DNA of 64,000 nt from Polytrichum commune (taxonomy: Eukaryota > Streptophyta > Polytrichopsida > Polytrichales > Polytrichaceae). Below, piece by piece: positions 3,001 to 60,974 of the stretch; the stretch's first letter is position 1; every line of letters starts with the position of its first letter. A program made the translations under genes and the position numbers. The stretch covers positions 11,534,501 through 11,598,500 of the forward strand of contig OX485808.1 in assembly GCA_950295325.1 (NCBI GenBank), read 5' to 3'. The notes beneath the pieces are model-generated. The model was not told where the DNA came from, did no database searches, and saw only the letters and a program-made list of their open reading frames with translations.

Positions 3001-4970
3001 CCAGTAGAATAGGTCCTGTCATTGAGACACCAATCAACAAAACGACAACAAAGAAGGTGTTTCTCTGGCAAATTCCTTCACATAATGCATCTGACATAGA
3101 AATATTTATGGCATCTACTTCAAGGCAAATATAAACACATCATCTTTCAGTAAAATTTCCCAACAAAGTAAAATATGGCGTTGCTATTCACTGAAAACAA
3201 TACAAGATCTTCACATGTTCCAGCAGTTAACAAAATGTTTGAACAGAAGTACCTCGCTCGCCAACAGTGAGAGAGGCATTGTTATTCCAGACAGGAGCAC
3301 CAGAGTTTGTCGTCCAGTGTGCTGAATCATATGCACTTGAAGGTCGGTACTGGACGACAGCCACATCCACGTCTCAGTTTATCACACCACTGTTTTGTCA
3401 ATAAACTTTCTAGGTATAAACTAATCCATTCCCCGACATGTTCATTGATTGATTGTCCTCTCGATAATCCCAAGTTGCTGACATACTAGACAACTGGACT
3501 TCAAACTCTGTGCGAGGGCACCGCGTTTCATTTCCAAAGATCAGCACATGCTTTGTCAGAAGGTTTCTATCATCTCATTTCTTAGCCATAAGTAACTTCA
3601 GATCTCAGGTTCAAGACGTTTCATGGAACATCAAGCAGGACAAGGCAGACATTCTCTCGAGTCAAGGCACTCACACATGGTGGGAGACGTATTTCAAAAG
3701 AAGAACTAAAAGACTACATAGCAGCCCGGGACGACGAACACAACATCCCAACTGGGCGAGCCTTGGTGGATGAATAGAACCACCCAGAAGCGAGAAAGAT
3801 CTCAAGAAGCTCCACACTCTAGACGGGCGACCCTGACCTACTTGACCCACTGGCTTGAAGTGAGAGGATGTCACTCCACAACCGAATGGCTTCAGAACAT
3901 GAGGGTAGCATAGAGACGTCATCGCAAACAATTTTACAAAAAAAAACACTTGAAATGCATCGAGCTTGAAGTCATTCATTTTACACCACCAAGACCAAAT
4001 GTCCTCGTTCAAGTGCGCTTGAATCAATCATTTTTATTTTATTTTCCTGGAGATACAACAATTTCCCTGACCCGTAATCAAGTCTCAAATACGATCCCAA
4101 CGGCAATTTGCTATGCACCGACAAAAGCTTTCTCAAGTGGCCATCGGGGAAAGACGACAATTAAACACTCACCCACGCACAAACTATACAACTAATGCAT
4201 GTCTGATAAGGCACTTCAAATTAACTCGACGACGCGCAGAGGTCAAGTATAAAGTGAAATTTCAGCTCAGGAGCACGAGTACACATCTCTACTCAAACTT
4301 ACTCACTTTTCCAGGAGGTTCTGTAACACCAGCATCACCAGGTGAGGTTGACAAATTACTTTTTAAGACATTTCCCCATTGTACCTCTGTGCGAACGAAT
4401 TAGCGATTGCTTCTATAGAAATAATGAAGTGAGCAATTATGAACCGACACGTAGGCAGGAGTTGCGCACTTCACAGGACCAAGCACAAATTGCAACTCAG
4501 TCATTCTCATTGCCACAAACCTAGAATCTACAACAACTAGCCTCGAACAAACCTCCACGAAGTCCTTTACAATTCATCAACACGAGAAACCAAAAGAAGT
4601 CTCTCCGTTAAGTCACACCTGACAGTAGAAAGCATAGGCCACACATAGCTGTCGCTATCTCAATCAACCTATAAGCCTAAACGTATACGCATCCATACTA
4701 GACAATGATGCCGCAACTCGCAAACCAAACCCCTGATGAGCTCTTCAAAGCTCCAGAAAATAAATTCATATTCAAGACCCTCCCACGGACAACCGCTCGG
4801 CAGAAATTCTAGGGGCAATAGAAATATACTAGGTATTCACGACGCAAATCGCTACGCACTTCATCAAAGACAAAGACACGGCCGGGAGAACCAAAAAGCA
4901 CGCCAAATAGCTCTACACAAAGCTCTCGAAACGAGAAATCAGGATTTCGACATACCTTGTAGGGATCCAT
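100..4970 (-). CDS. CAT: Catalase, plant peroxisomal type, complete, 8 coding exons
   Basis: Heme catalase that breaks hydrogen peroxide into water and oxygen in peroxisomes. Reading the minus strand with GT-AG introns gives exons 4970-4956, 3349-3253, 3015-2738, 2451-1675, 1329-1240, 947-880, 525-432 and 159-100. These join in frame to 492 codons, the usual plant catalase length. The protein starts MDPYK and ends SRLGAKANM. Key residues fall at the expected positions: His65 in [12 protein letters not shown], Asn138 in DMVGNNMPV and the heme-ligand Tyr348 in [12 protein letters not shown]. Donors are GTATGT, GTAAGT or GTATGG types. Exon 1 codes for only five residues and is followed by a 1.6-kb intron. 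The ATG at 4970 is fixed by the family-typical N-terminus. No disabling change was seen. The 3' UTR would run off the left edge below position 100. Confidence 0.97.
3350..4955 (-). other. Catalase intron 1 (1.6 kb)
   Basis: This interval lies between the five-codon first exon and exon 2 of the catalase gene. It begins on the minus strand with GTATG and ends with CAG before the TAC codon of Tyr6. Several ORFs of 60-118 codons occur inside on both strands, but none resembles a protein I know, so I treat them as chance. Long first introns can hold enhancing elements; I see no specific motif that proves this here. Confidence 0.85.
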
Positions 4971-18605: not shown

Positions 18606-20409
18606 ATAATATTGTTCTATCCAGTCATGTACTCTAACGAGCACATTATGTATTCTACCTCCTTTCTACACGGAAGTGTGTTGTATGAGAGATCATTTTG
18701 AGTCTGGAAATAGATTACTGGAATTCTTATATTTTTCCATTCATGGTTGAGTTTTTTTTTCTTGATTTCTCTACTGAATTGGGACTGAATTATTGTCATA
18801 TGTGAAACGTAGAAATTAAAGTCTCATCCTCTTGAAATTGCCATTTATTGAATCAATGATCCTTTGGAGTTTTGTATTTAGAAACGACTCTCAGACTCAT
18901 AGTACTGAGGCTCACACTAAGCGTACGTTACTACACTAAATATGATATTTAGTGTCACCAATTCTAATTGTCTTGCTCAATGCCAATTGTCTTGCTCAAT
19001 GGTAATTGTAAACCAAGGTGTAGTGTCACCAACACTATGTGTTACCCCAACATTATTTGTCATTGCTTGTAATTTTTTGGGGGATTATAAATTTACAAAG
19101 TTGCAATTACTGTCACTTACCAAGTGATTTTTCATTTACATTTCAATCATCTATGACAATATTCCATCACCGGTTGCTGACAAGAGAAGGTAGAGGTTTT
19201 GGCCAATGGATGAACTCATCCATCATCCATGACAATTTTTGTTCACTTGTTCAGAAGAAGTGACATTAACACTAGGTAGTATCCTCATCCATGCAAAGGA
19301 AATTTAGCAAAAGAAGATTAAAGAATGAGAGAGATCTATGTCATCACAACATGAGGTATTGCATGATCATGTGGCTCAAATGCAAACTTGTGATTGTATT
19401 AATGCAATTTGGAGAAGTCCACTTGAAGAAGGTTGCTCTCTTATATGTGTGCATACAACCACATTCCATTTCTCAAGCATCTAAGTAGTGTTATGACAAA
19501 CCCGTGTACTTCCTGGCAACCCCCTTTTCTTCTTAAATATCCAAGTGCGGTGGTGACTAACCTACACGAGAAGCATTATCCCTACTTGCTCCGTGCAACT
19601 ATCACCATGTTGTTTGAGCAATAGATGCAATTAGTGCTTTCCCCCACATGGTTTACATGGTTACGAAACAATGACCAATAGGAGATTGGTTTATTTTCCC
19701 TCCACTTCTAGAGACCCTATGCAAAAAAGAAAGTGATCTCGTGATGGGAACCCCTATTACACTTGTGTAAAGGAGAAGTCCTCTTGAGAAATATTGTTCT
19801 CTTGTACATGTGCACACAACCATCTTTCATTTCTTAGGCATCTACTATAAGTGTGGTGGTGACTAAGCTACATGGGAGTCATTTTTCCTACTTGCTCTAT
19901 GTGACTGTGCAAATGTTGGTTCAAATTCACTTGCAACTGGCACTTCCTACCCGGGGTTCACATGGTTAAACCAAACAACAATCAATAGGAGACCATTTTA
20001 TTTCCTCGGGTTCGTCGTACTCACAGTAACCTCATTGGATGTAATGTACTGCAGTTTGGCCTCTTCACTTCATTGCATACATGACAAAACTCCTATCAAG
20101 ATGAGAACTCTCATGTTGTCATGAGCCAATTGTTGTTCTAATCAAAACAAGCTATTAGTTATATGTTTGCACAACATCTACCTTTCATTTCTCAAGCATC
20201 TAAATGTTGTGGTGTCTAACTTAATCCTTGTGGAAGTCATTTTCCATACTTGGTCTGGGAACAACTATATATTTACATGTCGTGTCAAGTCCATGTACAA
20301 GTGGCGCTTCATCCCATGGTTCACATGGTCACATGAAACGACAGCCAATGGAAGATTGTTCTATTTTAAGCAAATATGATGTAATTAGCACAATTGAGCA
20401 GCATGGTTA

Positions 20410-21510
20410 CTAGGGTTTCATTGCGAGAACGGAGACTGTGCTTGATCGGAAGCACATTGAGTTGGAGCTTGCTGGTGGTTTCTAAATGTGAGGTAATGCA
20501 GTGCACTTTATCGCATTTCTTGTAACTTAGTTGCAGAGATGTGGGTTTGACGGAAGAGTTACACTGACTTTTTCTTCAGCTGATGCTCACTGCTTTGGAA
20601 ATGGTTTGGAAATGGTAACTGTTGCATCCATAAGAGCAGTAGGTGCAGAACTTGCTCCAAACCTTGAGACTAATTAGCATTGTTCTAGGTTTCTTTGTGA
20701 GATCGGAGATAAGAATTGAAAGAGGCAAATATAGTGGACCTTGGCAAGAAGTGCACTTTCTGGCATTTCTTGTAACGAAGCTGCGGAGATGTTTATTTGA
20801 CGGTAGAATTACGATGATTTTTTCTCCAACTTATCCTCACTTCTTTGGAACGGTAAGTGTGGCATCCAGAGATCAGGAGCTGCGGACCTACCTCCAAACC
20901 TTGAGAATTATTAGCATTGTACTTGGTTCTTTGTGAGAACGGAGATTATGCTTGAAAGAAGCAAATCCAGTGGATCTTGCTGAGCATTGCCGCTTTCTGG
21001 CATTTCCCATAAGTAAGTTACAGAGATGTTGATTTGACGGCAGAATAACGATGATGCTATCCTTACTACTTTGGAAATGGTAACTGTTGCATCCAACGAG
21101 CAGTAGGTGTGGAACTTGTTGTAAACCTTGAGACTTATTAGCATTGTACTAGGTTTATTTGTGAGAGCGGAGATTATGCTCGACAGACACTTATTTTCAG
21201 TACATGCTGGTGGCATTTCTTTTAACCTAGGTGCAGAGGTGTTGATCCGACGGCATATACTTTTCTCCAATCTTTTTTCACTGATTTGGAAATGATTGCT
21301 GTTGCGATTAGAGGAACAATATGTGGTGAACTTGCTACAGACCTTGAGCCTAGGGTTGCGTTGCGCTAGGGTTTCTCTATGAGGATGGGCATTATGCTCG
21401 AAAGTAGCAAATTCAGTGGAGCTTGCTAAGCCATTGCACTTTCTGGCATCTCTTGTAAGTAAGTTGCAGAGGTTTTGATTTTGACAACAGATAGACGATG
21501 ATGATTTTGT
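20410..21510. repeat. Diverged tandem array, unit about 235 bp, about 5 units (copy A)
   Basis: The words GAGAACGGAGA or GAGCGGAGATTATG, CTTTCTGGCATTTCTT, AGTTGCAGAGATGT, TTTGACGG and ACCTTGAGACTTATTAGCAT recur in the same order about every 235 bases, near 20420, 20695, 20935, 21160 and 21380. On the minus strand the array gives an open stretch of about 214 codons whose own sequence is internally repetitive; I treat it as a by-product of the repeat. The same array is at about 28925-30020. Confidence 0.7.
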
Positions 21511-21588
21511 CTCCAAATTTGACCTAAGCCAGGTTGTACATCGATGGGCGGGCATGTGAAGAGGAAGACAGCTCCATGGGGAAATTGA

Positions 21589-22141
21589 TCAATTGATCAA
21601 AACAGAAACGTCCACCAAGGTAACGTGTTTGTATCTGTGTTGTTCCACTATGTGAAATACACTCAATATCCGCCTGAAATCCTCAAGAACAAACTCAGGC
21701 AAGAGCATTTCATGTTGCACAAGTGCTTTCTCCCCTAAAAGCTCAGGTGATGGTATGGCAGGGAGATGCTCCGGATCACATGCTGCAGTAAGATACTCTT
21801 TATCTGGAGCACCAATTGCCATCGCAGGGTCAGTAGGATGTGTGAAGGACTTCAATTTTGGTTTTTGTTTGCATGTGAGTTTTCATTACTTGTTGGTCTT
21901 TTATGGAATTGGATTGCATCAGGTTTGTAGTTTCTACCTCGAGCACACATTCTTGAATTACATCAGAGTTATCCTCTAACTCGACATGACTTTTGATCGG
22001 GAGTTGGTTGTTCTGCATACGAGACATTCCATGATCAATGAGTTTTTGGTGCATGCTTGGAGGTAGCATTGAGTGTGAATTGTGTTTGGCTCTTAATGAA
22101 CACAACCTCTTAGTGTGCACCAAAATTGGAAAGAGACTCAT
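21589..22141 (-). other. Pair of overlapping minus-strand ORFs of unknown function (copy A)
   Basis: Two minus-strand ORFs, 22141-21830 (103 codons) and 21855-21589 (88 codons), overlap in different frames. The second carries an acidic, hydrophobic run with LLPEFVLEDFRRILSVFH and is followed by VEQHRYKHVTLVDVSVLIN. Both are also intact in copy B at 30342-30653 and 30101-30367. I recognise no domain. They could be exons of one small gene, a frameshifted relic or chance. The duplication is recent enough that shared intactness proves little. Confidence 0.25.
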
Positions 22142-22475
22142 TATTTGTTGTTACATATTCAACATTTGTATGCAAAATAACTCATGGAAAATCATAAGGT
22201 ACCAACTTCCGATGAGAAGTCCTCTTGAATTAAAGGATAACTCTAGTATGAGAGTTTTGCAGTGTAAGTTTTCCAAGAATGGGGTGTCTTTCAATGGAAA
22301 GATTTTTTCCACATTTCAAACTCCAGATTCATGTGTGGTTTACTGTTTATGAGGTGATTGTCTTCCTTACATCTCTCACAGGTAGAGTTTGCATTGGTCA
22401 ATGAAGAGAAGGAGGCGCATCAGAAGCACCAGAGTTTAGTGTAACCTAGCCATTGGCTTTTTGAGTACCACCAAC

Positions 22476-22580
22476 ATGGTGAAACTACGAGAGTTTATTT
22501 TTGCTGATGTTTGTGTGCATTTATATTGTGTCTTCTGCATTTCGCAACTTTATTGGGAGCATAATCAACCTCTGAACTAG
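22476..22580 (+). pseudogene. Truncated DUF6604 gene start (copy A)
   Basis: The leader CCATTGGCTTTTTGAGTA and the following ATG are the same as upstream of the intact gene at 30987. The first 28 bases of the coding sequence (ATG to TTTTTG, 22476-22503) match with three or four substitutions, giving MVKLREFIF instead of MPKLPEFIF. After 22503 the sequence is unrelated and the frame stops at 22578-22580 after 34 codons. This is the remnant of a second DUF6604 copy cut off by a rearrangement. Confidence 0.8.
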
Positions 22581-22875
22581 TGCTTTCAAATTCGCATGAT
22601 TATGTTGTGGTAGTCCATCTTAGTTAGAATATTTAGAAAACACTTAGGGTTTCCAATTAGGGTTCAATGCTCATGTGAATTGCATTGAGTGCTATTCATT
22701 TCATTGCATTGTGTGTTGTGGGCACAATTAATGATGTGGAATTGATGTGGCAAACTCAATCTGTTGCAGATTGAATGCAAGCAGTTGTGCCTTAGGGTTG
22801 AGCTATTGAGTGGTTTTTATTGTGTGGTTTCAATGTTTTTTAGGTATACTTTCATAATATTACCTGCATGCATTA

Positions 22876-25800
22876 ATGGCGACGTCTAAAGTGAAATCAT
22901 CATCTAAAGTTCCTAAAGGGTGGACGACGACGAATCTCCTTCCAGAGGCGCTTGCAGTGGATTTGCACGTACTTGAAGATGAAAATATGATAAGGTTGTT
23001 GGGCAGGGACAAATTTGTTCAGTTGAGCATTCATGGTTCGCAAGGTTGGCAACATGGGGTAAGTGCGCCTTTCTAAAACATATTGATTTCATTGTTGTCC
23101 CCTCGTGTTTGCATTTTTGTGTTTCTTTGTGTGTTGAATTTGTTTGCATATCTGAGCTTTTTGGGTGTTGAATTTTTTTTCTTCTAATACTCACATCTTG
23201 TATTGTATGTATAATTTTTGGCTACAAACACTTGTATATACTTGCAGAAGACATTAATGTATCTGCAATTCCAACTACTCACTATATGTTTAGCATGCTT
23301 TTTAGTGTTGTTTAGTTTAGTTTAGTTTTTAGTTTAGTTTGTTTTTATGAGACTGTTAGTTAATTCACTTTGGTGGCTTGTGAGACTTTGCATATCAATT
23401 GCTCTCATGATGATGTTCTTTGACATTGTTTATGTTCTACAACGTTTTTTGGGTTTACTGTTGTGTTCTTTAGCATGCTATTTAGGTTGTTTTTGATTCA
23501 ACACAAAAGTTGGCGCCATGTGCCAGTCATTTCCACTTTCAGATTTTTTGTTTTAGTTGATGCCAATAACTTTGTATATGCATTGTTTAGATAACCATAT
23601 TTTCAAAGTTCTCTGTGTTTTGGAATATTTTTATGGCCTCGATACTATGCTAGTTTTTGTTATTTTAATAATATTTTAATGACATTTACTATTCTGTAAT
23701 CTCCATACATATGTGTAATTGGGTGAATAAACTGTTCAATGCAATTGTTTTCTGCAGATTGAATAAACTTTTTTTTTTTTTTTGTAGGTGTTTGTTGGCA
23801 ATGATGGAAGATCTAGGATTTTCCGTTGTACTATGAAACAAAATCGGAAGAATTGTGCTGCTATCTATTGTGAAGAAGAATATGAAAAACTCGTGCTAGA
23901 GACATATTGGCAGGCGAGGGCCAAAACCAAGATGGCAAATAACAGGTATCCATTTTTTTGTATTTTCTGTAAGGAGTTACATAAAGATAAGAACACACTT
24001 TCATACCATAGGATGTTCAACCTTTGCAAGGGCTATACGGGAGAGCAACCTTTGAAGATGTATCCTACTTGGGAGCCTAGCAATCATGGAGAGAAAGTGA
24101 GGATTTTTGCAAAATATGGAAAGGTGTCGTCACCAATTGCTTCACAATCTCCATCCCTTGCCGTATTTCCACCACCTCTAGAATTAGATGTACTTCAGGT
24201 TTGTAGTACAACATTGGCCAATGTCCCTGCAGAACAATGTCCTACATCCAAGAAACGCAAGCTGCAGAACAATGTCCTACCCACTCAGACTCCCCATCAT
24301 TTAGTGAGTGGTAGACCACGCAACCTAGTGATTGACATTCCCCACTCATCAACCTCCTGCAAGGTGCAAAATCTTGAAGTGAAGGCAATCCCAAAAATCC
24401 CCAAGTCACCTCCCTCTCCTAAGTGTCGACCGAAGGAGAAGAAGCCACCTCGCCGGGCCATTATCTCCTCGAGCACTGAAGATTTGAATTCGGCGAGTTT
24501 GCATAGCGAATTTGAATCAACTACAAAAGAGGCAACACCAGATTCCCAGAAGAGTGGTCATAGTGAGTTTCATGTTGTGAAGCATGACCATGTTCTTCGT
24601 GCCCAGCCTTCGCACGAGGATGTTCTTCATGCCCAACATTTGCTTGAACTTGTCCAACCTCGATTCCTCTCGCGTGAGGAGTGCAAACAACAAGCGTATG
24701 AGGAGGCCACGACACTTTTCAATGCGGACAATGAGATTGCAAGCCCTCCTGAACCTGTACCGATTAATGGTCTCTACATCCTCATCACGGAGACTGACGA
24801 GCAATGGGTGTCTAAGGATCTCTTAGACAACCCGGATGCATGCATGCAATACCTACACAAGCAATTGGAGGATGGCACAATCGGCCAACGTATTGGAAGT
24901 GCATTTGGACAGTGGTATTTATTTGGCAATGCAAAGGTATTATCATCATATGCTGTGTTCTTCTGTTCTACAAGGGTGTTACGTTTTCTTATACTTCTGT
25001 TCTACTAGGGGGTTATGTTATTTTGTTTTTCTGTTGAAGACATAGATAATGAATTGTTTGAGTTTCTATTGCAGAACACAAAAACTCCTGGAGAACATAG
25101 TGAATTTCTTGATAAAATAAAAACTCAGGTCAAGTGTTTTAAATGCAATTCGAATATGCAAGTGTATGAAGAATTGAAGAACCTCAAAGACTATCTTCAT
25201 TACCGCATTCAACAAAGGGAATACGATGCCAAGGTCGCGGCCGCGAAAGTCCGCTTCGAGAATTTTCGTAGAAATCATGTGGAAGCCAAGCTGTGGGAAT
25301 TTGATCGCGCGGAGAAAGAGAAGGAGGAGGAGTCCAAGTGGAATTGGTCCCCATTGTACCAGATATTTAAAAAATGGCCTCTTAAAAATTTTAGGGATGG
25401 CCCTTGGGATCACACAGATAAAGAGTGGTTCGAGATGTCTTCTATTCTTCTAGATAACACAAAGAATGAGCCTCTATCATTGGAGCGTGAATGCCCGCAT
25501 ATCTTGAGGGCCTTCTTGTACTTGGTTAGGACTCTAGAGGGGTATAGTCGTCCACTCTCTCACCCAACTAGAGGTCTAGATCTTCAGTACATATTGCAGC
25601 TTGCTCATGACACGCACCACTCCGTCGCTTTGACAAGAGTTGCGCAAAGTCTCCCATTAATAGGTTGGAGCACTTTTCCAGGCATCCAGAATGCTGCAGA
25701 TAGCTTTGACAATTTATACTCGGACGTTGTAGCTTTGCTTGGAAACGAATCATCAAGGCAAGTGGCAGTGGTTGAGAAGATACAGTCCTTCATAGGTAGG

Positions 25801-26357
25801 ATTGCGCAACGAGCCATTGCAGACATGGTCCGCATGCACCGTAAAGACGAGCTTGCTAACATGTGGTTCAATAGGGATATCACTCAGGAACGACATACGA
25901 AGTGTGAAGAAGTATGGACAGTTTACACATGTTCTACATCTGCTTCTTAATGTGTTCTTCATATGTTTTCATCTGATTTTTAATGTGTTGTACACATGTT
26001 ATTCATTGGTTATTTATGTGTTCTTCATCAGCTTTTTGTGTTCTTCACATGTTCTTCATATTTTTTAATGTGTTTTTCACGCTGGCCAACCTTAATGAAT
26101 GCTATGTGACGCAGGTTTTATGTTCTTCATTGATATTTCGCGAAGATGTGGATGTGGGAACAACCATGTTGGGCGACCTGTACAAGAAAAGCCATTGCGT
26201 GCAGTTGCGGGTGGAAGAGATGATACATGGCCTACAACATGTAAGGTCCATACAATTGCGTTTGTTCAATTGTGGACTGGGAGTGGAAGAGGCAACTGAT
26301 GATATTGCACAAGACGTACACTGCACGAGGGTGTTGTTAGGAGATGATGTTAAATGA
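22876..26357 (+). CDS. Four-exon gene of unknown function with a C2HC zinc-finger-like motif
   Basis: Four exons join in phase 0: 22876-23058, 23788-24936, 25075-25911 and 26115-26357, giving about 803 residues. Splice sites are GTAAGT, GTATTA and GTATGG donors with TAG, CAG and CAG acceptors; the first acceptor follows a long T tract. A finger-like motif has Cys119, Cys122, His135 and Cys141 (FFCIFCKELHKDKNTLSYHR). The middle is rich in Pro, Lys and Ser (KIPKSPPSPKCRPKEKKPPR), like a disordered, possibly nuclear segment. Exon 3 begins with a highly charged helical stretch (about 490-530) and continues into a hydrophobic C-terminal region. I do not recognise the family. The last two exon joins are less sure: without the last splice the frame ends at 25950. 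The gene lies exactly between the duplicated blocks, so it could be a gene carried by an inserted segment. Intact frames over 2.4 kb argue that it is or was recently functional. Confidence 0.65.
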
Positions 26358-26360
26358 ATA

Positions 26361-26608
26361 TCTATTTTGAGCAAATATGATGTAATTAGCATAATTAAAG
26401 AGGCTGCAAGGGTTTCATTGCGAGAACGAAGATTGTGCTTGATCGTAAGCACATTCAATTGGAGCTTGCTGGTGGTTTCTAATTGTGAGGTAATGCAGTG
26501 CACTTTCTCGCATATCTTGTAACTTAGTTGCGGAGATGTGGGTTTGACGGAAGAGTTACAATGACTTTTTCTTTAGCTTATGCTCACTGCTTTGGAAATG
26601 ATTTGGTC
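26361..26608 (+). repeat. Third partial copy of the duplicated unit
   Basis: From TCTATTTTGAGCAAATATG the sequence matches about 20357-20605 of copy A (and about 28868-29117 of copy B), ending at GCTTTGGAAATG. It then joins directly to the start of copy B at GTCAGGATCAGTGG. It is more diverged than A and B are from each other, which suggests an older duplication event. Confidence 0.75.
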
Positions 26609-26940
26609 AGGATCAGTGGTCCATACCGCCAAAGTATTTGATGTCAATTCTGGATAATTGCTGTACAGTCTCAAGGGACATCAAGATCATGTAAGTTCGG
26701 TGGCTTGCTTGGAACCCTCCTTATGATTGGTTGGCAACCGGATCTATAGATGGAAATATCATTGCCAGACTCTCAGGAAATTCATCAGGTCCAGTCTTGT
26801 CTGTGGCTTGGAATCCTGATGTAGACCCTGGCGGTGGGATATGAATGAAACTCTGTGAAGGTGTGGGATGCAAACTCGAAAAGGATAGTCTTTGAATTGA
26901 AGTGTGCATTCCGTCATAGTACTGAGAGGTCTTTTCCAAA
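26609..26940 (+). pseudogene. WD40 pseudogene fragment (copy B)
   Basis: This carries only the WD40 part of the 17488-18605 pseudogene; the U-box part is absent. It has its own small deletion (the stretch coding GGTLGCHL in copy A is missing) and a duplicated GCTT. Translated pieces include LSVAWNPDV and DSVKVWDANSKRIVFELKCA in different frames. Confidence 0.65.
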
Positions 26941-28924
26941 ATGATATTGTTCTATCCAGTCATGTACTCTAACGAGCACATTATATATTCTACCTCCTTT
27001 CTACACGGAAGTGTGTTGTATGAGAGATCATTTTGAGTCTGGAAATAGATTACTGGAATTCTTATTTTTTTCATTCATGGTTGAGTTTTGTTTCTTGATT
27101 TCTCCACTGAATTGGGACCGAATTATTGTCATATGTGAAATGTAGAAATTGAAGTTTCATCCTCTTGAAATTGCCATTTATTGACTCAATCCTCCTCTGG
27201 AATTTTGTATTTAGAAATGACTCTCAGACTCGAGAGTAGTGAGGCTCACACTCAGCGTACGTTACTACACTAAATATGATATTTAGTGTCACCAATTCTA
27301 ATTGTCTTGATCAATACTAATTGTAAACCATGGTGTAGTGTCACCAACACTATTTGTCTTGCTTGTAAATATTTTGGGGGGTTACAGTTTTACAGTGTTG
27401 CAATTACTGTCACTTACCAAGTGATTTTTCATCCAAATTTCAATCATCTATGACAATGTCTCATCACCAATTGCTGACAAGAGAAGGTAGAGGTTTTGGC
27501 CAATGGATGAACTAATCCATCATCCACGACAATATTTGTTCACTTGTTCATAAGAAGTGTCATTAACACTAGGTAGTATCCTCATCCATGCAAAGAAAAT
27601 TTAGCAAAAGAAGATTAAAGAATGAGAGAGATCTATGTCATCACAACATGAGGTATTTCATGATCACGTGGCTCAAATGCAAACTTGTGATTGTATTAAT
27701 GCAATTTGGAGAAGTCCACTTGAAGAAGGTTGCTCTCTTATATGTGTGCATACAACCACATTCCATTTCTCAAGCATCTAAGTAGTGTTATGACAAACCC
27801 GTGTACTTCCTAGCAACCCCCTTTTCTTCTTAAATATCCAAGTGCGGTGGTGACTAACCTACACGAGAAGCATTATCCCTATTTGCTCCGTGCAACTATC
27901 AACATGTTGTTTGAGCAATAGATGCAATTAGTGCTTCCCCCCACATGGTTTACATGGTTACGAAACAATGACCAATAGGAGATTGGTTTATTTTCCCTCC
28001 ACTTCTAGAGACCCCATGCAAAAAAGAAAGTGATCTCGTGATGGGAACCCCTATTACACTTGTGTAAAGGAGAAGTCCTCTTGAGAAATATTGTTCTCTT
28101 GTACATGTGCACACAACTATCTTTCATTTCTTAGGTATCTACTATAAGCGTGGTGGTGACTAAGCTACATGGGAGTCATTTTTCCTACTTGCTCCATGTG
28201 ACTATGCAAATGTTGGTTCAAATTCACTTGCAACTAGCACTTCGTCCCGGGAGTTCACATGGTTAAACCAAACAACAATCAATAGGAGACCATTTTATTT
28301 CCTCGGCCTCTAGTGCCCCCATTCAAAATAGACCCAATCTCACAATGAGTCCCCCCTATGACACTACTATAGTGATGCACATGACTTGTCATGGTGAAGA
28401 CTCGTTACTCTCTTATAGCATGCCCACACTAGGACCAATCGCTCCTCCTTGATAGCAAGATGAGTCCCTCTTGATAGGGAAAGTTCATCTCTTTCTGCAA
28501 TTCAATGCCATCAATAAGGGTTGTTCGTCGTACTCATAGTAACCTCATTGGATGTAATGTACTGCAGTTTGGCCTCTTCACTTCATTGCATACATGACAA
28601 AACTCCTATCAAGATGAGAACTCTCATGCTGTCATGAGCAATTGTTGTTCTAATCAAAACAAGCTATTAGTTATATGTTTGCACAACATCCACCTTTCAT
28701 TTCTCATGCATCTAAATGTTGTGGTGTCTAACTTAATCCTTGTGGAAGTCATTTTCCATACTTGGTCTGGGAACAACTATATATTCACATGTCGTGTCAA
28801 GTCCACGTACAAGTGGCGCTTCATCCCATGGTTCACATGGTCACATGAAACGACAGCCAATGGAAGATTGTTCTATTTTAAGCAAATATGACGTAATTAG
28901 CACAATTGAGCAGCATGGCTACAA

Positions 28925-30020
28925 GGGTTTCATTGCGAGAACTGATACTGTGCTTGATAGGAAGCACGTTGAGTTGGAGCTTGCTGGTGGTTTCTAAATG
29001 TGAGGTAATGCAGTGCACTTTATCGCATTTCTTGTAACTTAGTTGCAGAGATGTGGGTTTGACGGAAGAGTTACAATGACTTTTTCTTCAGCTGATCCTC
29101 ACTGCTTTGGAAATGGTTTGGAAATGGGAACTGTTGCATCCAGAAGAGCAGTAGGTGCAGAACTTGCTCCAAACCTTGAGACTAATTAGCATTGTTCTAG
29201 GTTTCTTTGTGAGATCGGAGATAAGAATTGAAAGAGGCAAATGTAGTGGACCTTGGCAAGAAGTGCACTTTCTGGCATTTCTTTTAACTAAGTTGCGGAG
29301 ATGTTCATTTGACGGTAGAATTACGATGATTTTTTCTCCAACTTATCCTCACTTCTTTGGAACGGTAAGTGTGGCATCCAGAGATCAGGAGCTGCGGACC
29401 TACCTCCAAACCTTGAGAATTATTAGCATTGTACTTGGTTCTTTGTGAGAACGGAGATTATGCTTGAAAGAAGCAAATCCAGTGGATCTTGCTGAGCATT
29501 GCCGCTTTCTGGCATTTCCCATAAGTAAGTTACAGAGATGTTGATTTGACGGCAGAATAACGATGATGCTATCCTTACTACTTTGGAAATGGTAACTGTT
29601 GCATCCAACGAGCAGTAGGTGTGGAACTTGTTGTAAACCTTGAGACTTATTAGCATTGTACTAGGTTTATTTGTGAGAGCGGAGATTATGCTCGACAGAC
29701 ACTTAATTTCAGTGGATGCTGGTGGCATTTCTTTTAACCTAGGTGCAGAGGTGTTGATCCGACGGCATATACTTTTCTCCAATCTTTTTTCACTGATTTG
29801 GAAATGATTGCTGTTGCGATTAGAGGAACAATATGTGGTGAACTTGCTACAGACCTTGAGCCTAGGGTTGCGTTGCGCTAGGGTTTCTCTATGAGGATGG
29901 GCATTATGCTCGAAAGTAGCAAATTCAGTGGAGCTTGCTAAGCCATTGCACTTTCTGGCATCTCTTGTAAGTAAGTTGCAGAGGTTTTGATTTTGACGAC
30001 AGATAGACGATGATGATTTT
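28925..30020. repeat. Diverged tandem array, unit about 235 bp (copy B)
   Basis: Counterpart of the array at 20410-21510 with the same unit order and only scattered substitutions, so the array existed before the segmental duplication. Confidence 0.7.
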
Positions 30021-30100
30021 GTCTCCAAATTTGACCTAAGTCAGGTTGTACATCGATGGGCGGGCATGTGAAGAGGAAGACAGCTCCATGGGGAAATTGA

Positions 30101-30653
30101 TCAATTGATCAAAACAGAAACGTCCACCAAGGTAACGTGTTTGTATCTGTGTTGTTCCACTATGTGAAATACACTCAATATCCGCCTGAAATCCTCAAGA
30201 ACAAACTCAGGCAAGAGCATTTCATGTTGCACAAGTGCTTTCTCCCCTAAAAGCTCAGGTGATGGTATGGCAGGGAGATGCTCCGGATCACATGCTGCAG
30301 TAAGATACTCTTTATCTGGAGCACCAATTGCCATCGCAGGGTCAGTAGGATGTGTGAAGGACTTCAATTTTGGTTTTTGTTTGCATGTGAGTTTTCATTA
30401 CTTGTTGGTCTTTTATGGAATTGGATTGCATCAGGTTTGTAGTTTCTACCTCGAGCACACATTCTTGAATTACATCAGTGTTATCCTCTATCTCAACATG
30501 ACTTTTGATCGGGAGTTGGTTGTTCTGCATACGAGACATTCCATGATCAATGAGTTTTTGGTGCATGCTTGGAGGTAGCATTGAGTGTGAATTGTGTTTG
30601 GCTCTTAATGAACACAACCTCTTAGTGTGCACCAAAATTGGAAAGAGACTCAT
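30101..30653 (-). other. Pair of overlapping minus-strand ORFs of unknown function (copy B)
   Basis: Copies of the ORFs at 21589-22141. The 88-codon ORF is unchanged in protein sequence; the 103-codon ORF differs by two residues (VELEDNSD becomes VEIEDNTD). No domain recognised. Confidence 0.25.
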
Positions 30654-30986
30654 TATTTGTTGTTACATATTCAACATTTGTATGCAAAATAACTCATGGA
30701 AAATCATAAGGTACCAACTTCCGATGAGAAGTCCTCTTGAATTAAAGGATAACTCTAGTATGAGAGTTGTGCAGTGTAAGTTTTCCAAGAATGGAGTGTT
30801 TCTCAGTGCAAAGATTTTTTCCACATTTCAACTCCAGATTCATGTGTGGTTTACTGTTTATGAGGTGACTGTCTTCCTTACATCTCTTACAGGTAGAGTT
30901 TGCATTGGTCAATGAAGAGAAGGAGGCGCATCGGAAGCACCAGAGTTTAGTGTAACCTAGCCATTGGCTTTTTGAGTATCACCACC

Positions 30987-33443
30987 ATGCCGAAACTACC
31001 AGAGTTTATTTTTGACAGTCACAAGCGGTATAAGGCAGATACAAATCAGTTAACAGCATGGCTGGTTGAAACAGCTGAAGGACTTGGCTATCGCTCGGAG
31101 TCATTGCACTCCACTGAATGTAAAGTAACAGCTCCCACGAGGCTCAAAGGGAAAGCAAGGAAGCAGAATACACAGGAAACTTCTTCAATCGTGGAGTACA
31201 AAACAGTTTTTGTCAAAGAGTTCACCAAACTTGCACGCTTCATTGCAGGTAGCTCTTATCCCATCAAGGTTCCAAGACTTGTGTTGAAGCTTGCCCACAG
31301 TGCCATTTCCGCCCGAAAGGGTTGTGCTGAGTGGTTTAGACATACTGCAACACAGGAAGATGTCAGTGACAAAACGCATTGGCACTTCATAACAGTGTTG
31401 GAGGAAGTCGTCCGGATTTTGGACCCACTTTGTGACCAAGATGACACCGAGCCTGCAGCTATGGAAACCAGACCCGGTGAAGTAGCCCTTGCTAACTCGT
31501 TTTCCCTTCTCAATGTTGAAGAAACAAAGGATGACGATTTTTGCCAGACATTACCACCTGTGGTCACGCAAGCCTCAACAGGCACCCCACTTTCTCAACA
31601 ATTGGTGGTGTACACTTTGGCAGAAGACGATAGGGATGATTGGTTTGTAGTTTTCTGTTTTTTCAAAGACTTGAGTGAGATTCGAAATTTCCTGCGTGAG
31701 ACATGGTCTGATTACAGACATGGGAAAACTGATCTCATTACAGCATCCGTCACAACAAACATGGCTTTCAATATCATTCGCAGCGCACAGGAAGACTTGG
31801 TATCCCTTCACCCAAATATGGACAGTTATGAAGGTATTGCCGATGTTCTCTGCTCTGGGACCTACATCCACCTTGGCGAAGGTCCTCCACCATTTGAACT
31901 GGGTGGAAATCTGAATCTGAACCTGCTTGATTTTGAAGAATTTGTGTACTTGCAAATTTTCTGGGTGCTCCTGAAATTCTGTGATGTAATTCAGCCTGAT
32001 ATCCTGCCAGTATACCTGCCTGGCCATTTTGGCATTTATGATCCACGCCGATCCAGAGACTTGCTGTCCATTCAAGAGAAAAGATTGGAGGATCGAATTA
32101 TCCTGTTTGAGACCTTACCCGATTTTGTCTCACTTGCACGGCTTAGAAAAAATGGCCAGCAAATTATACTCCACGACGAGCTGGCCAAGGAGCTGCAAAA
32201 ACTGGTGTATAAGAAGGAAATCTCCCTGCTTCTTGTGTTTGCCATTCAAGTGTATTTGGACATACACCATGTCTTGCGAGAGCAAGTCGGCCAAGGGCTT
32301 CAAGACCTGCGTCGTGCTGGAGTTTGGGTAACCAGAAGCTTGCGAGAGTACTCCCAAAACTCTCCTAAAGAAAAATTCGAAAACTGGGGTGCCTCTAATG
32401 AGGCATGTGTGGAGAGTCTGAAGGGCTTCGTCAAGGACTGGATTCTGTCAGACTTTCTTGGGGCTGTCAGGAAACCTGTGCATCTTCGTATGTTGCCTGG
32501 TGTTGAGTTTGAATCTTACTACCTCCTCACCCGCCATCCCTTCTTATGTGGCATGTTGCAATTCCGCATGCAGCTCATGTTTCAGGAACTAGGGTTGGTG
32601 CTGGCAACTGCCTGGGGCACAATTCTTTTCGTGAGCCATTTGTACGAGGCAGGCAAAAACGAGGGGTTACTAAGGCTTGAGTCATGGAAGGATATGGAGT
32701 GGGTCATGAAAGTACATGATAAAGAGCGAATGTTTCGAGGACGAGTGCCGCAGAACGTGAGTGAGTCATTCAAGAGCCTGTCTCTGATGGCTGGAGTGTC
32801 AACTTCTTATTTTGCTTCTACCACCCGTCCTACAAAGAAATCCTATTCAAGACCAAAGGCGTCACCAAAGGGCCCTTTTTTCTTGAAGGAAAATTCTCCT
32901 ATATCTGCCATGTTCCGAGACCACATTGTCCATGGAGCCCTGGCGTTGACAGCAGAGACAATGGAAGATCTCTTGGCGGATACCGGGGTGGATCCCTCGT
33001 CATTGCAACTTTCCGAGCCCCAAACAAAGCTGCAACAACAATGGGCTCATAACCATAAATTGACGCCATTGCAGTTCCTCGCGATACTCAGGGCAGCCCT
33101 GGTTGCTGAGCAGCACATGATACGCTTCGATTACGTCAGTCTGCATATGCGGTGTATTCAGCTTCTTCGTGAGATTAGGGTGATGCTCCACGACAAGTTT
33201 GTGCAATACCATGGTGAACGTTTCATGGAGAATGAGACACAGCTCTCATGGTTGGTGGGTTGGATCTTGTTAACTGCTGCCGAGTCTGAGAAAGCAACAA
33301 AGATGATGAGGCTCCGAGATAGATCTTCGTCCAATGTGATGTTGGTGCGTGCAAGCCAGGTGCTTGACAGTTTCATCGAGCGAGAAGGGAATGCAGAATG
33401 TACCAAATTGGAGAAAGTCTTGCAACAATCGAACAGGTTTTGA
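30987..33443 (+). CDS. DUF6604-domain protein, intronless, probable fungal acquisition
   Basis: An 818-codon uninterrupted frame. I place the start at the ATG at 30987; the in-frame TTG at 30972 is not a plausible plant start. Residues 3-150 read PEFIFDSHKRYKADT, TAWLVETAEGLGYR, RLKGKARKQ, KVPRLVLKLAHSAISARK and HWHFITVLEEVVRIL. Residues about 222-270 read VFCFFKDLSEIRNFLRETWS and LITASVTTNMAF. These blocks in this order are the hallmark of DUF6604, a domain known mainly from large cytosolic proteins of filamentous fungi; its molecular function is unknown. The rest (about 280-818) is mostly helical in look, without membrane segments or a signal peptide, and I recognise no second domain. The lack of introns contrasts with the plant genes around it. 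The leader and first codons are repeated in copy A, so the gene was in this genome before the duplication and is not simple contamination. Confidence 0.85.
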   Translation: MPKLPEFIFDSHKRYKADTNQLTAWLVETAEGLGYRSESLHSTECKVTAPTRLKGKARKQNTQETSSIVEYKTVFVKEFTKLARFIAGSSYPIKVPRLVLKLAHSAISARKGCAEWFRHTATQEDVSDKTHWHFITVLEEVVRILDPLCDQDDTEPAAMETRPGEVALANSFSLLNVEETKDDDFCQTLPPVVTQASTGTPLSQQLVVYTLAEDDRDDWFVVFCFFKDLSEIRNFLRETWSDYRHGKTDLITASVTTNMAFNIIRSAQEDLVSLHPNMDSYEGIADVLCSGTYIHLGEGPPPFELGGNLNLNLLDFEEFVYLQIFWVLLKFCDVIQPDILPVYLPGHFGIYDPRRSRDLLSIQEKRLEDRIILFETLPDFVSLARLRKNGQQIILHDELAKELQKLVYKKEISLLLVFAIQVYLDIHHVLREQVGQGLQDLRRAGVWVTRSLREYSQNSPKEKFENWGASNEACVESLKGFVKDWILSDFLGAVRKPVHLRMLPGVEFESYYLLTRHPFLCGMLQFRMQLMFQELGLVLATAWGTILFVSHLYEAGKNEGLLRLESWKDMEWVMKVHDKERMFRGRVPQNVSESFKSLSLMAGVSTSYFASTTRPTKKSYSRPKASPKGPFFLKENSPISAMFRDHIVHGALALTAETMEDLLADTGVDPSSLQLSEPQTKLQQQWAHNHKLTPLQFLAILRAALVAEQHMIRFDYVSLHMRCIQLLREIRVMLHDKFVQYHGERFMENETQLSWLVGWILLTAAESEKATKMMRLRDRSSSNVMLVRASQVLDSFIEREGNAECTKLEKVLQQSNRF

Positions 33444-34669
33444 TGGAGGTCACTTCGTAAGTAAATTCTTGAAAAGTAAATCCGACAGAAGGGGGAGGCG
33501 TCAGAGATCAAACAATTGAGCTGCATTTGGGTAAGAATCTGGTTACAAAATCTGGTATTTGATATTTTGGTGCACTTGATATTTTGTCACATTTTAGCAT
33601 CTTCGATGGTGTAATGGACGCCATTAGTGAATGCACTTTGATGAGGTGGACATTAACATGAATAATGAGATATATGGAAAATGAGACAGGTTGCATGGTT
33701 GGTTGGTTGGTTGGTTGATTGGTTGATTGGTTGGGTCAATCTTTTTATCGACCACCAAATCCAAGAGAGCAACAAAGGTAAAGTTCTGAGATGGAGCTTT
33801 GTCCAATGTGATGTTGTGTACACGCGAAGTAGTTGACAGTTTCATCAAGCAAAAAGGGCATGCAACCACCACATTTGAGAATTCATTGCCATACAAATCA
33901 ATGTAATTGTGATTGATTTTTGAGTTCAAACTTGAAACATTTGGGCTGAAATTGAGAGCATGGCATCAAATGGTGCAAAATCTGGTATTTAGAGCTTGAT
34001 GCTCCTGGAAACTGGGTGCACTTGGTGTTTTGTAAGATTTTGAGGAGTGGAATGTGGCCCTACTGTGGGGACTTCCAACGTCACATGTCTGATGTGATCC
34101 GCCTGGGAATTGACTCATCCAGTAAGCAAGTGTGAACCACAAAGATTGTCATATCAAGTTTGGAAACTGGAATAAAGATGCAAAAAGTTACGAGTCTAAA
34201 GTGATCACACACACCCTACAGTGATCTCACACACACAGCTGAACCTTGAATGGGGCCTATATTTTGGGCACAAAGTCCAATTTTATTGAAACAAAGATAT
34301 CCAATCATGGAGAGTGACCATGCACTAGTCTGAATGGGGTTTTTCTTGACAAAAGGTTCTGACATGAAACCCCCCTTTGTCAAATTTATGACAACAATTT
34401 AACTGTCAAGCATCCTTGAGAATGCTTGAATGAGGGTTTGGCGCCTGTCTGCCTAGAGACCATCCGTAGATGGAAACCAAGATAGCTCGTTGGTGATTAA
34501 TGCACAAGTGATTACTTCTGGTATATCTATAATAGGAAGTTGTAGGGTCTTCAGTTTTTTAACATATGCAAAGGTGAATACCACTCAAACTCATTGAACA
34601 GGATCTCAATATAAGTGACATACCCATCTGGACGGAAGTTGACAGGAAGTCTGAGGGCCTGTAAAATTT
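33444..34669. other. 3' flank of the DUF6604 gene; GGTT repeat; no gene seen
   Basis: Holds a short GGTT/GATT tandem run at about 33697-33735. The region 33735-33870 weakly echoes the 3' end of the DUF6604 gene (AGAGAGCAACAAAG, GTCCAATGTGATGTTG, TTGACAGTTTCATC), a partial duplication of coding positions near 33285-33385. Confidence 0.55.
33755..33865 (+). pseudogene. Short duplicated fragment of the DUF6604 3' coding end
   Basis: The words GAGAGCAACAAAG, CTGAGATGGAGCTTTGTCCA, ATGTGATGTTG and GTTGACAGTTTCATC follow the same order as in the gene's last 170 bases (GAAAGCAACAAAG, GATCTTCGTCCAATGTG, CTTGACAGTTTCATCGAGC). It is clearly diverged and out of frame, so it is a local duplication older than the 18-31 kb one. 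Confidence 0.6.
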
Positions 34670-42030: not shown

Positions 42031-42194
42031 CACTTCCAGTATCCTTCATTTTAAAAGGGGAAGTCTGATTTCCAATCCGATCTTGGTTGATGTTTCATCA
42101 TAGACTTGCTAGGTTGATGCAACACAAGACATATATCGGATCAATAGAAGGTGGAGGACAAGAAAAACTAACCCAATGTCACCCACACACCTTA

Positions 42195-42711
42195 GGGCAT
42201 CTGTAGTGGATCTAGGTAAAGCTCACTGCAAACCAAAACCTATCTTTTGACTGACCTAAAATTAGAAACTGAAATTACCATCATTAGAAGCACACCTAAA
42301 TAAACGTGAGATATTTCTCAAGAAAAAAGAATTGTAAAAATTTGACGTAGGTGAAATCCCTCATTGAAAACACCACATTTTCAAAATTTAGAGGGAGTGC
42401 ACCAAATCTTGCTTAAAAATGGAAAGATCCTCCCACACTCCCTCTAAATGTCAAAAATTTGGAGGGAGTGTGGGAGGATCTTTCCATTTTAAAGCAAGAT
42501 TTGGTGTACTCCCTCTAAATTTTGAAAATGTGGTGTTTTCAATGAGGGATTTCACCTACGTCAAATTTTTACAATTCTTTTTTCTTGAGAAATATCTCAC
42601 GTTTATTTAGGTGTGCTTCTAATGATGGTAATTTCAGTTTCTAATTTTAGGTCAGTCAAAAGATAGGTTTTGGTTTGCAGTGAGCTTTACCTAGATCCAC
42701 TACAGATGCCC
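42195..42711. mobile_element. Near-perfect 517-bp hairpin MITE with TTA target duplications
   Basis: The left half (from GGGCATCTGTAGTGGATCTA) is repeated in inverse almost base for base in the right half, with the centre near 42453 and a loop of about seven bases. Each arm is about 254 bp with only a few mismatches. TTA flanks both sides (42192-42194 and 42712-42714), which fits PIF/Harbinger Tourist-like elements. There is no coding capacity. A transcript through it would fold into one very long double-stranded stem, so it is a candidate source of small RNAs. Confidence 0.9.
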
Positions 42712-42824
42712 TTAGGGTCACAGCCTCACAGGTCTTAAAACAGGGATGAGGGTGTAAGCTTAAAACAGGGGCAGAAGCTTCCTGCTACACACGTTCGGAG
42801 GAATAGGTTAAATTAGGTTAAACA

Positions 42825-45136: not shown

Positions 45137-45232
45137 CTTCGTGAAAGGATACAACGCTTGGCAACCCAATAAAGCATACTTAAAACAGGCATGAATCACA
45201 TGGTGGAAGCTGGAAAACCTATGAGCTACAAG
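44723..45232. repeat. Tandem duplication, two units of about 250 bp
   Basis: Units at about 44723-44978 and 44981-45232 share GGTTATGTAGG, GACTCCAAAG, GGATGGTTCCTCTGCTTCGT, AATCACATGGTGGAAGCTGG and CCTATGAGC in order. They lie in the presumed intron and 3' exon region of the SMI1/KNR4-like gene. Confidence 0.85.
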
Positions 45233-45320
45233 AAGTCTTGAAACTGGTGAATCCATACAATATAACAATTGATTTGACGATGATCATAGATTCTTGGAAT
45301 TAACGAATTGGGAAACTCAC

Positions 45321-46773
45321 ATTTGTTCCGGACGTGTGCCTCAAGTCGCTGGTTCCAAGGCCGAGGTGATGGCTTGAAATCCATCATATCCGAGATGTCG
45401 TCCTCCCTCCATCCACCCTGCCGAAGAACGACAGACATTTCCTCGAGATACCCGTGTAGCCATTTGGAGGATTTTGCTGCAAACAGGTCTTTCCTCTCTG
45501 GATTGCCCTTGATTGAGTAGAGTGGATCATATTCCACTTTCCGAGGAGAATATAGACCTTCGGCATTATTGGGAACAGGCGTCTGCGTCTGCTTCTGTTG
45601 CTGCTTCTCAGCAAGATCACTCCAGAATTCAATCCTACGAGGAGTGCGGGCGGACCACTGGGGCATCATCAATGTAGAAAAGTGTATCAAAGTTTTTGTT
45701 GATAACGGCCTCTCTATCATGTAGCTGTACTTGAAAAGATCGTCAGGAAATTCGGCTACACGTGGAGACTCTGGTTCTTGTGATCTTTGATCGAAACTTT
45801 TCGTGAACTTCAGTTGCCGGCTGGCGAGCCTGCACTTGAGGCGCTCAAATCCACTTGGCGACCTACCCGTCCGTGGGCTACCGCCTAACGACCCCGTATT
45901 CTTAGCAAGAACGTCCAGACTCCGGCCCCAAGTTTCCCCCTGTCCTAATTCGGAACTCCCAGATCCAGAAGTTTCTGACAAATCCGTTCCCGATGAAGAA
46001 TTAGAGCTCCGGTGCAAAGAGTCGACGTCTGTATGATATGGCCTTCCTTTCCCAGCTCCACTATCGTTGCTCAGGAGGCTTCTATTGCTTCCCGTATCGT
46101 CACTCCAGTTGTCAAAATCGAAGGGCTCACTGTCACGGACAAGAAACGCCTCACGCTCGAAAAAATCCGCGACGTCGTACCCGCAGTACAGGACATGTTT
46201 CTGGTACGCAAAGAATACAGGGTTGCCCGCCAGATTTGGTGTGGTTGGAATATAGCAATGGCCATACATAGGGATTAGAACTGGAAACTTGCGTAGAGCA
46301 GAGCGAGCACTTCTAATTGCTTGTTGAACATCCACCGGCCTTGCTCCCCATGGCTTCCACCAGAAGCTCGATTGAGCGACTTCCTGTAGTATTCCAAGTA
46401 CGGGAAGGTTGATGCGCATTCGCAACTGCTCAACGTTGCCCGTCCTCCAGTTAGGAAATCCTGCTCCTACAGGAAGTCCTTCCTGGAGTATGCCTTTCAA
46501 GTCAGGCGGAAACGTGAATCCAAACGTGGCTTCAATCCGTTCAAATTCTTCATCCGACAGGCCTTCAGCAATGGGAACTTCACATTTTTTCAACTGGTTG
46601 ATTACGCTTCGCGCGTAAGCCGAGAAGGAGAAGAAGACACGTCGGCTGCCCGGCGGAGTTGATGGACCTGCACTTGCGCGCGCTGAAAGACGCTTTAGCC
46701 CCGCGGCGTGAGCTTGATACTTCTTCGGAGTTCCTCTTAAGACCTCCCCGGCCAGCTGCCCCACATCCAACAT
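45321..46773 (-). CDS. SMI1/KNR4-like plant protein, exon 1 (484 codons)
   Basis: A large minus-strand first exon starting MLDVGQLAGEVLR. It resembles a plant family of unknown precise role with an SMI1/KNR4-type fold, known in fungi for cell-wall signalling scaffolds. Key blocks are AHAAGLKRLSARA (21-33), GLSDEEFERIEATFGFTFPP (71-90, the SMI1/KNR4 signature), DLKGILQEGLPVGAGFPNWR (91-110), FWWKPWGARP (137-146), LIPMYGHCYIPTTPNLAGNP (166-185) and VLYCGYDVADFFERE (194-208). A Ser/Gly-rich linker follows, then a conserved second part with FWSDLAEK and LHGYLEEMSVVLRQGGWRED. The frame runs on to a stop at 45226, but a strong GTGAGT donor at 45320 suggests the last 31 codons are intron. No transit or signal peptide is obvious. 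The codon use and GC are higher than in the flanks. Confidence 0.85.
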
Positions 46774-48120
46774 CCTGATAACTGTCTTCCTGAATTACTC
46801 CTGACCCTTTTCTTACTTTTTCGCTTGACTGCTTTCCCTCATGTTCAGACACCCTGCGGCAGGAGCGATCCTCACAAGGACACCTCAAGTCCAGAGAACG
46901 TGCATAAAATTTGGTGCAATAGAACACTCTATTTCATTGCATTTACTCGTAGTCAGCTGAGTCGCAGTCGAGGCCTACGAACTCCAGGGAGAATTATATT
47001 CTGCTCCAATCAATTCAGACAGCAACCTGTCGCATAACTACATTTGCTTCCCGCAGCTACAAGTTAACTACTGGCCAGGAATGGAAGACGTCAAGGCAAG
47101 AAGCGGGCATGTGAAGATTGACATCGTCCTCCACCTAATGACCAATTCCACAAAGTTGCGAGCCTTAGCACAATCCCATAGAGGAAATTTGCAACAGGAG
47201 ACGTACTTTCCTCAAAGACTAATAGCTCCCCGCAGACTGAAGGTAGGGAAGGTATTTGAGAGGACTCGACGATGAGAATATCAGGGCGTGGAAATTTGCA
47301 TGTATGACTTTCTCACTCTGCATTTAGTAAAGAATCAATCCATTGCCGATATATTGCAAACGGCTGGGACAACTTTCAGATGTGATGATTAGGACACCGC
47401 TCAAATGAGGCGATATTATCAAAAACTATTACAATCTGCACAAGGCGGTGGTTCGTAGCGTAACGAGATTCCCCTCGGTTTAAATTGTGAACACTAAATG
47501 ATCGAGAGCCGGCACACACAATGCACACACAGGCGACTTGAGAAAGCAGCACGCAAGAGGAAGGCTCCCTCGTTGGAAGACCAGCGCTAAGAAACAAAAA
47601 AACGAATGAAATCTCTCTCAACTAAACACCTGTTCTCTCACTTGAACATAATAAGGAGCAGCAACCCCGAGCTGATGGATTGGCGCCTGAAATCAAAAGA
47701 CAAGGTCACTGTTCACAGGAGCCACATTAAACTCGCAAAACAAAAGTATTGACAAAACAAAATTAAGACCTTCACCAATGAAGGGCTCAGTCAAGATCCA
47801 CTACACAACGGCCAAAATCCAACGAGCTTCAAAGGCACGTCGGTTTGACACTCCATCACCCTTTGTGAACCCAAACAGGCACCGATCTGGGAGAATATTA
47901 TATGGACAGAGATCTGGAAGTGAAAGCTCCCCGATGACAATGGTTTCCCAGACGATAAACCTCCCTCTTGCGGCAGCTAGAGGCGCGGGGGGAGCGGCTG
48001 CGAGCGACGACAACTAGGAAAAGCGAGGCAGGAGGCGAAGCTCTCTAGAGGTCTAAGGGTGCGAGACGAAGTGGGGAACGTGGGAACAGCAGTCCGTTCA
48101 GCTCGTTCCCCAAGCACGTT
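46774..48120. other. Upstream region of the SMI1/KNR4-like gene; GC-rich 47.9-48.1 kb
   Basis: The presumed 5' leader and promoter of the KNR4-like gene. A GC-richer patch at 47930-48120 holds a 70-codon minus-strand ORF (48013-47801) starting MSSLAAAPPAPLAAARGRFI. It could be the first exon of a small gene or an upstream leader exon or uORF. I recognise no domain, so I do not call it. Confidence 0.35.
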
Positions 48121-60045: not shown

Positions 60046-60974
60046 TTAACCCCTAATGGACCGGGGGTGTTTTAGCTTAGGTCATGTTTTCTCGATTAGC
60101 TCTTGTAGAAAGCTCAATTTCTTATTAGTGTGGGGTAATTTTCACGATCGGCACCGTTGAAACTAAAGAAGACTTACATAGCTTGTTAATGAAAAAAAGA
60201 TCAACAAGATCGCACAATTTATGAGAAATTGCCACCGTTGAGAAGATTGATGGAAATTGTTCGGGCAGGGGGTACTTCATACTTATGCTGGAATCAGATT
60301 GCTTAGAAGTGCTCCAAAACATCTGAAATTTTTACCACATGTAAAGAACATTATGACCCTCATGTGGAAATTTTTTCGTCAAATTTTGAGGTGTGGAAAA
60401 AAAGATATGGGACTCTGAAGTCTCCAAGCAATGAGATTGGGCCCAAAAACTGAAAACTCAAAGAATTCGCCAAAAATCCAATCCTTCATCATTTTCTGAT
60501 CGGAAAAGACCATTGGATCCATCTCGCAAAAATAGCCTGGGTCCTCTCCCCGCAAATTTGGACTTCTTTGGAACAATCTCATCCAATTTGCACTTTTCTA
60601 CAATCAAAAGCCCCCTGGGGGCCTTACGGTCCTTAGAAGTGCTTCAAAACATCTAAAAGTTTTACCACATGTAAAGAACATTATGACCCTCATGTGGAAA
60701 ATTTTTCGTCAAATTTTGAGGTGTGGAAAAAAAGATATGGGACTCTGAAGTCTCCAAGCAATGAGATTGGGCCCAAAAACTGAAAACTCAAAGAATTCGC
60801 CAAAAATCCAATCCTTCATCATTTTCTGATCGGAAAAGACCATTGGATCCATCTCGCAAAAATAGCCTGGGTCCTCTCCCCGCAAATTTGGACTTCTTTG
60901 GAACAATCTCATCCAATTTGCACTTTTCTACAATCAAAAGCCCCTTGGGGGCCTTACGGTCCTTTAGGGGTTAA
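60046..60974. mobile_element. TIR element, about 929 bp, with a 330-bp internal tandem duplication
   Basis: The left end TTAACCCCTAATGGACCGGG is inverse to the right end, which reads TTAACCCCTAAAGGACCGTA on the minus strand. Inside, 60303-60632 and 60633-60962 are near-identical direct copies of a 330-bp unit. The second unit ends at the right terminus, so the duplication copied the sub-terminal part. There is no transposase; a 67-codon minus-strand ORF in each unit is a by-product. Superfamily not determined. Confidence 0.7.
60303..60962. repeat. Direct tandem duplication, 2 x 330 bp
   Basis: Both units begin TTAGAAGTGC and continue through ACCACATGTAAAGAACATTA to GGGGGCCTTACGGTCC. Only a handful of differences are visible, most in the first 50 bases, so the duplication is recent. 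Confidence 0.95.

Follow-up and report, generated by a model that had tools for sequence, protein, structure and literature searches.

DUF6604 is a domain of unknown function that is known mainly from fungi and is broadly represented in filamentous fungi. A long open frame with this domain on a chromosome of the moss Polytrichum commune raises the question of whether the frame is a genuine moss gene and, if so, by which route the family reached the moss. The window analysed here, a stretch of 64,000 nucleotides, corresponds to positions 11534501-11598500 of contig C6 (44.65 Mb) in an assembly of 407,808,757 bases and 64 contigs. The features on which the argument draws are collected in Table 1.

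Table 1. Features of the window around the DUF6604 gene (positions counted from the first base of the window)
Feature	Position	Strand	Basis and remarks
Intact DUF6604 gene, coding frame	30987..33443	+	818 codons plus stop, ATG to TGA
DUF6604 domain (residues 13-272)	31023..31802	+	PF20253, 221.7 bits, profile positions 1-250 of 251
Leader of the DUF6604 gene, copy B	28523..31014	+	Runs 28 bases into the frame; 98.2% identical to 20010-22503
Leader copy A, start codon included, truncated after coding base 28	20010..22503	+	Pairwise alignment
Upstream duplicated block	26608..28306	+	91% identical to 18249-20009
Candidate 5'-UTR intron, GTAAGT...TTACAG	30776..30892	+	Sequence alone; copy A has retained these signals (22264-22381)
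Dispersed repeat between the two duplicated units	22504..26350	+	5' limit from 22504 to about 22712; 3' limit near 26350
Second 3' end of a DUF6604 gene, present as a decayed remnant (residues 752-806)	33687..33873	+	tblastn, E 8e-6; nucleotide alignments
Catalase gene, two exons, native neighbour	1651..3139	-	PF00199, E 1.7e-114 and 2.2e-45
522-codon frame, presumed native neighbour	45229..46794	-	Sub-threshold SMI1_KNR4, 15.9 bits where the cut-off is 25.4

An intact DUF6604 gene

A sequence-only reading of this DNA had described an 818-codon frame that shows the DUF6604 blocks in order and has neither introns nor stops, and both points were borne out. The translated protein matched the Pfam profile PF20253 with an E-value of 1.4e-65 and a score of 221.7 bits, far above the cut-off of 27, so that a chance match is excluded; with the gathering cut-off exceeded and nearly the whole profile covered, the protein is a member of the DUF6604 family. 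An in-frame stop at 30948 closes the frame on its upstream side, no internal stop occurs across its 818 codons, and the domain, which sits toward the N-terminal end of the protein, is not interrupted by an intron. Compared with the family as defined in Pfam, the moss member has a near-complete domain and adds 546 C-terminal residues without a Pfam match (E up to 10), PF20253 being the sole family listed by Pfam for the 818-residue protein at the same threshold. The NCBIfam search returned a single match that was not useful (E 0.15), the PADLOC and PHROGs searches of the protein returned none, and no relative was found in the PDB (best E 0.91).

In an old plant gene, an intron-free frame as long as 818 codons is unusual. 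This counts against ancient vertical inheritance, according to which DUF6604 would have been present in an early eukaryote or plant, would have been lost from other lineages and would have survived in fungi and some mosses. Many independent losses would also be required if the family is distributed as described above.

Integration into the moss chromosome

Contigs C1 (77.85 Mb), C6 and C7 (42.08 Mb), together with C2, C3, C4 and C5, which extend to at least 67.8, 54.3, 53.0 and 52.7 Mb as judged from the furthest matches seen, hold at least 392 Mb, or at least 96% of the bases; the haploid number of Polytrichopsida is seven. The genome gave 22 DYW-domain matches, a count compatible with a moss but not decisive for the placement. 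Six LEAFY exon matches fell at three loci, L004 (C1:40.57 Mb), L005 (C1:62.30 Mb) and L008 (C7:8.64 Mb). At the sites taken as 312/345, L005 and L008 carry Asp/Cys, as in moss type II, and L004 carries His/Arg, as in type I, where the assignment of these residues to the two types is our assumption. According to the available part of a published study (PMC6588583), P. commune and several moss classes outside Bryopsida have both LEAFY types, and Bryopsida have type II only. The presence of both types, together with the seven large contigs, suggests a moss of Polytrichopsida.

Within the window, 34 frames extend from stop to stop over 115 codons or more, and the 33 besides the DUF6604 frame were scanned with Pfam, a floor at which genes made of small exons are missed. 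The scan gave two catalase matches, one copia gag match and one reverse transcriptase match, which, along with the dispersed repeat described below, support the earlier description of the window as otherwise occupied by plant genes and transposons. The window also contains a near-perfect inverted repeat at 42190-42716, with two 260-base arms that are 98% complementary and separated by 7 bases, which might reflect a foldback element, a small-RNA precursor or another hairpin. Separately, a tandem duplication of 333 bases at 60302-60964 is recent, with 98.5% identity.

Mosses host many fungi, and the available text of one study (PMC11228847) estimates a fungal origin for 22% of the genes in the raw assembly of a moss, which favours fungal contamination or misassembly as the source of the frame. 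However, the DUF6604 gene is surrounded by host DNA and by duplications specific to the host, as a gene integrated into the nuclear genome should be: it is continuous with host repeats, and its leader is duplicated only at this locus. Other parts of the 44.65 Mb contig carry decayed relatives, no N was present among the 64,000 nucleotides of the window, and the GC content at third codon positions (GC3) resembles that of two native frames. A Zn_clus profile used as a contamination control gave no match, and it was uninformative because it matched nothing anywhere. Contamination or misassembly is thus unlikely, to the point of being scarcely credible.

Duplication of the leader

The leader and first codons of the gene had been reported to recur in a copy 8.5 kb away, and the alignment of copies A and B, with A upstream, confirms this over 2,494 columns at 98.2% identity, with the ATG at 22476 in copy A and at 30987 in copy B. 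In the genome, the final 200 bases of the leader were found in copies A and B and nowhere else. The local duplication proposed in the sequence-only reading therefore holds for the leader together with codons 1-9 and does not extend to the gene as a whole. The upstream duplicated block contains a 49-residue frame at 26695-26841 that was judged WD40-like by eye. Both leader copies also contain a degenerate internal repeat (20500-21516 and 29012-30028), with spacings of 250, 237 and 446 bases.

The two duplicated units are separated by a dispersed repeat whose core had 73 matches in the genome, the query itself included; searches around its 5' and 3' ends gave 29 and 64 matches, respectively, counting the query and local duplicates. 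The repeat carries frames of 406 and 313 codons without a Pfam match, and at least some 20 long relatives with 73-82% identity occur on several chromosomes. It is an uncharacterised mobile-element or repeat family.

In the simplest history, the DUF6604 gene would already have been present with its leader when the upstream block was duplicated in tandem, coding base 28 marking the breakpoint, and the dispersed repeat would have been placed at or near the duplication junction. Copy B, in which the whole gene is kept, would then be the original, and the truncated copy A the stump. The idea that copy A represents an older gene split by the repeat was rejected, no DUF6604 sequence being found between the repeat and copy B. 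The leader (28.5-31.0 kb) probably drives transcription of the gene, and a small 5'-UTR intron may be removed from the transcript.

Decayed relatives and past selection

A search of the genome with the protein as query found two places, the gene itself and a fragment at C6:12481834-12482697, 0.92 Mb away, which matches residues 355-650 with 46-48% identity and contains three stops and a frame change. Patchy similarity extends past the 3'-end remnant in the window into the 3' flank. The DUF6604 profile run over the genome at E up to 10 found the 30987-33443 frame alone, and one intact DUF6604 copy is thus present among those found. These older, strongly decayed copies show that the gene was resident in the genome well before the duplication of the 98%-identical leader.

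At first, second and third codon positions, the frame differed from the distant fragment at 61 of 280, 53 of 281 and 107 of 283 sites, respectively. The excess at third positions (107 of 283, or 38%) over the other positions (114 of 561, or 20%) was significant (p = 9e-8). With 18 gaps in the two aligned pieces, some sites are assigned to the wrong codon position; such errors should dilute a codon bias and not create one. The third-position excess shows, at the level of sequence comparison, that selection on the protein acted in the past on at least one of the two lines, and it does not speak to present-day selection.

Every other copy found is decayed, as might be expected if the frame itself were a recently disabled gene or a chance survivor whose product is no longer useful. 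However, about eight stops would be expected in 818 codons at the decay rate of the fragment, a rough figure as decay times may differ, and none was observed; together with the codon-position bias, this makes such a state improbable.

The GC3 of the DUF6604 frame (0.498) was close to that of a catalase exon (0.533) and of the 522-codon frame (0.506), which we take to be plant in origin, although two native frames are a small sample. The frame thus shows no foreign base composition. A host-like GC3 is expected after an old transfer, and composition is therefore not decisive on transfer. Host-like GC3, old decayed copies and long-term selection all fit the long residence that vertical inheritance implies, and the age and native composition of the gene fit that history as well as they fit an old transfer. 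Against it stand the intron-free frame and the independent losses considered above, and we regard vertical inheritance as unlikely, while giving it real weight.

Origin of the gene

In our best reading, the frame is a genuine gene of the moss nucleus; the mainly fungal distribution of the family, the uninterrupted frame and the precedents set out below lead us to infer that it probably descends by horizontal transfer from a fungus. The transfer would be old enough for a host-like composition to have been reached. Duplication has left at least three pieces, namely the dispersed fragment, the 3'-end remnant and the recent truncated leader copy; every other DUF6604 copy found has been lost as a gene, and the remaining one was retained as a protein by selection, to judge from the codon-position bias against the fragment.

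Transfer could also have involved another donor, such as a moss or other plant that had itself acquired the gene or another eukaryote, or could have run from moss to fungi. The breadth of the family in filamentous fungi argues against this. Furthermore, scans with six short peptide patterns each gave no close relative in viral or prokaryote contigs: eight stretches of the viral contigs and three of the prokaryote contigs matched a pattern, none of which was confirmed. Moss-to-moss transfer has been proposed for fungus-derived NAS genes in the available text of one study (PMC12454661) and offers a parallel for such a route, though we consider a donor other than a fungus, or the reverse direction, quite improbable for DUF6604.

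Descent from a fungus has precedents in mosses, as described in the available parts of the following papers. KP4 and HET genes are present in mosses, and 273 transfer candidates have been published for Physcomitrium patens (PMC11228847); PpMACRO2 derives from Mucoromycota (PMC7181705); fungal NAS genes occur in several moss groups, Polytrichales included (PMC12454661); and HopQ1-like moss genes fall inside a fungal clade (PMC6019455). According to a review (PMC7911284), Sun et al. (2020) identified two fungal regions in P. patens that contain HET and HopQ1-like genes as well as CF, described as a conserved fungal gene without known function. KP4, PpMACRO2 and HypNAS/PolNAS resemble DUF6604 in being fungus-derived and fixed in mosses, with PolNAS reported in Polytrichales; they differ in belonging to other protein families and in having published trees or experiments. 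The P. patens regions FR1/FR2 resemble the DUF6604 locus in placing fungal-type genes amid mobile elements in a moss chromosome, and CF shares with DUF6604 the lack of a known function. In contrast, FR1/FR2 group HET, HopQ1-like and CF genes and DUF6604 stands alone.

The fungal HET domain (PF06985) had at least 12 matches in the P. commune genome, all above the cut-off and 11 of the 12 in open frames of 540-800 codons. They lie at C1:37635090, C3:23059834, C4:5185015-5674367 (six, clustered within C4:5.18-5.68 Mb), C4:18546421, C4:39141744, C7:37868206 and C50:44349. Among the 12 matches listed, none is on C6, and an adjacency to DUF6604 of the FR1/FR2 type was thus not found. Other fungal-type genes with long frames are therefore present in the genome, but away from DUF6604.

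The DUF6604 profile found no match in any of 14 control genomes. The terms DUF6604, PF20253 and IPR046539 were absent from the open-access literature, which omits most subscription papers, a weak sign of novelty. The DUF6604 gene is a probable new example of the known phenomenon of fungus-to-moss transfer.

Possible function and significance

No signal peptide was evident by eye on the 818-residue protein. Its most hydrophobic 19-residue stretch, residues 412-430, reaches 1.8 on the Kyte-Doolittle scale; this value is borderline, and the protein may thus contact a membrane through this stretch. AlphaFold2 run without relatives gave unusable models of both the whole protein (mean pLDDT 34.9) and residues 1-300 (mean pLDDT 35.5). 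The protein is probably mostly helical, as a weak prediction.

By analogy, the likeliest role of the protein, which we put forward tentatively, may be an intracellular part in the dealings between moss and fungi, as has been proposed in print for the fungus-derived moss genes HET, HopQ1-like and CF. A more specific suggestion, which we hold to be doubtful, is that DUF6604 and the expanded HET genes form a moss set of fungal self/non-self recognition genes that was acquired from fungi and has been reused within the cell to sense or act against fungi. If that were true, DUF6604 would be an unrecognised component of recognition in fungi as well.

If a tree confirms the transfer, DUF6604 would join the fungus-derived genes of mosses as a fungal family that has been long kept and under selection, and the moss would offer a host in which the function of DUF6604 could be learned. 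The decayed DUF6604 copies allow bounds to be placed on the age of the acquisition.
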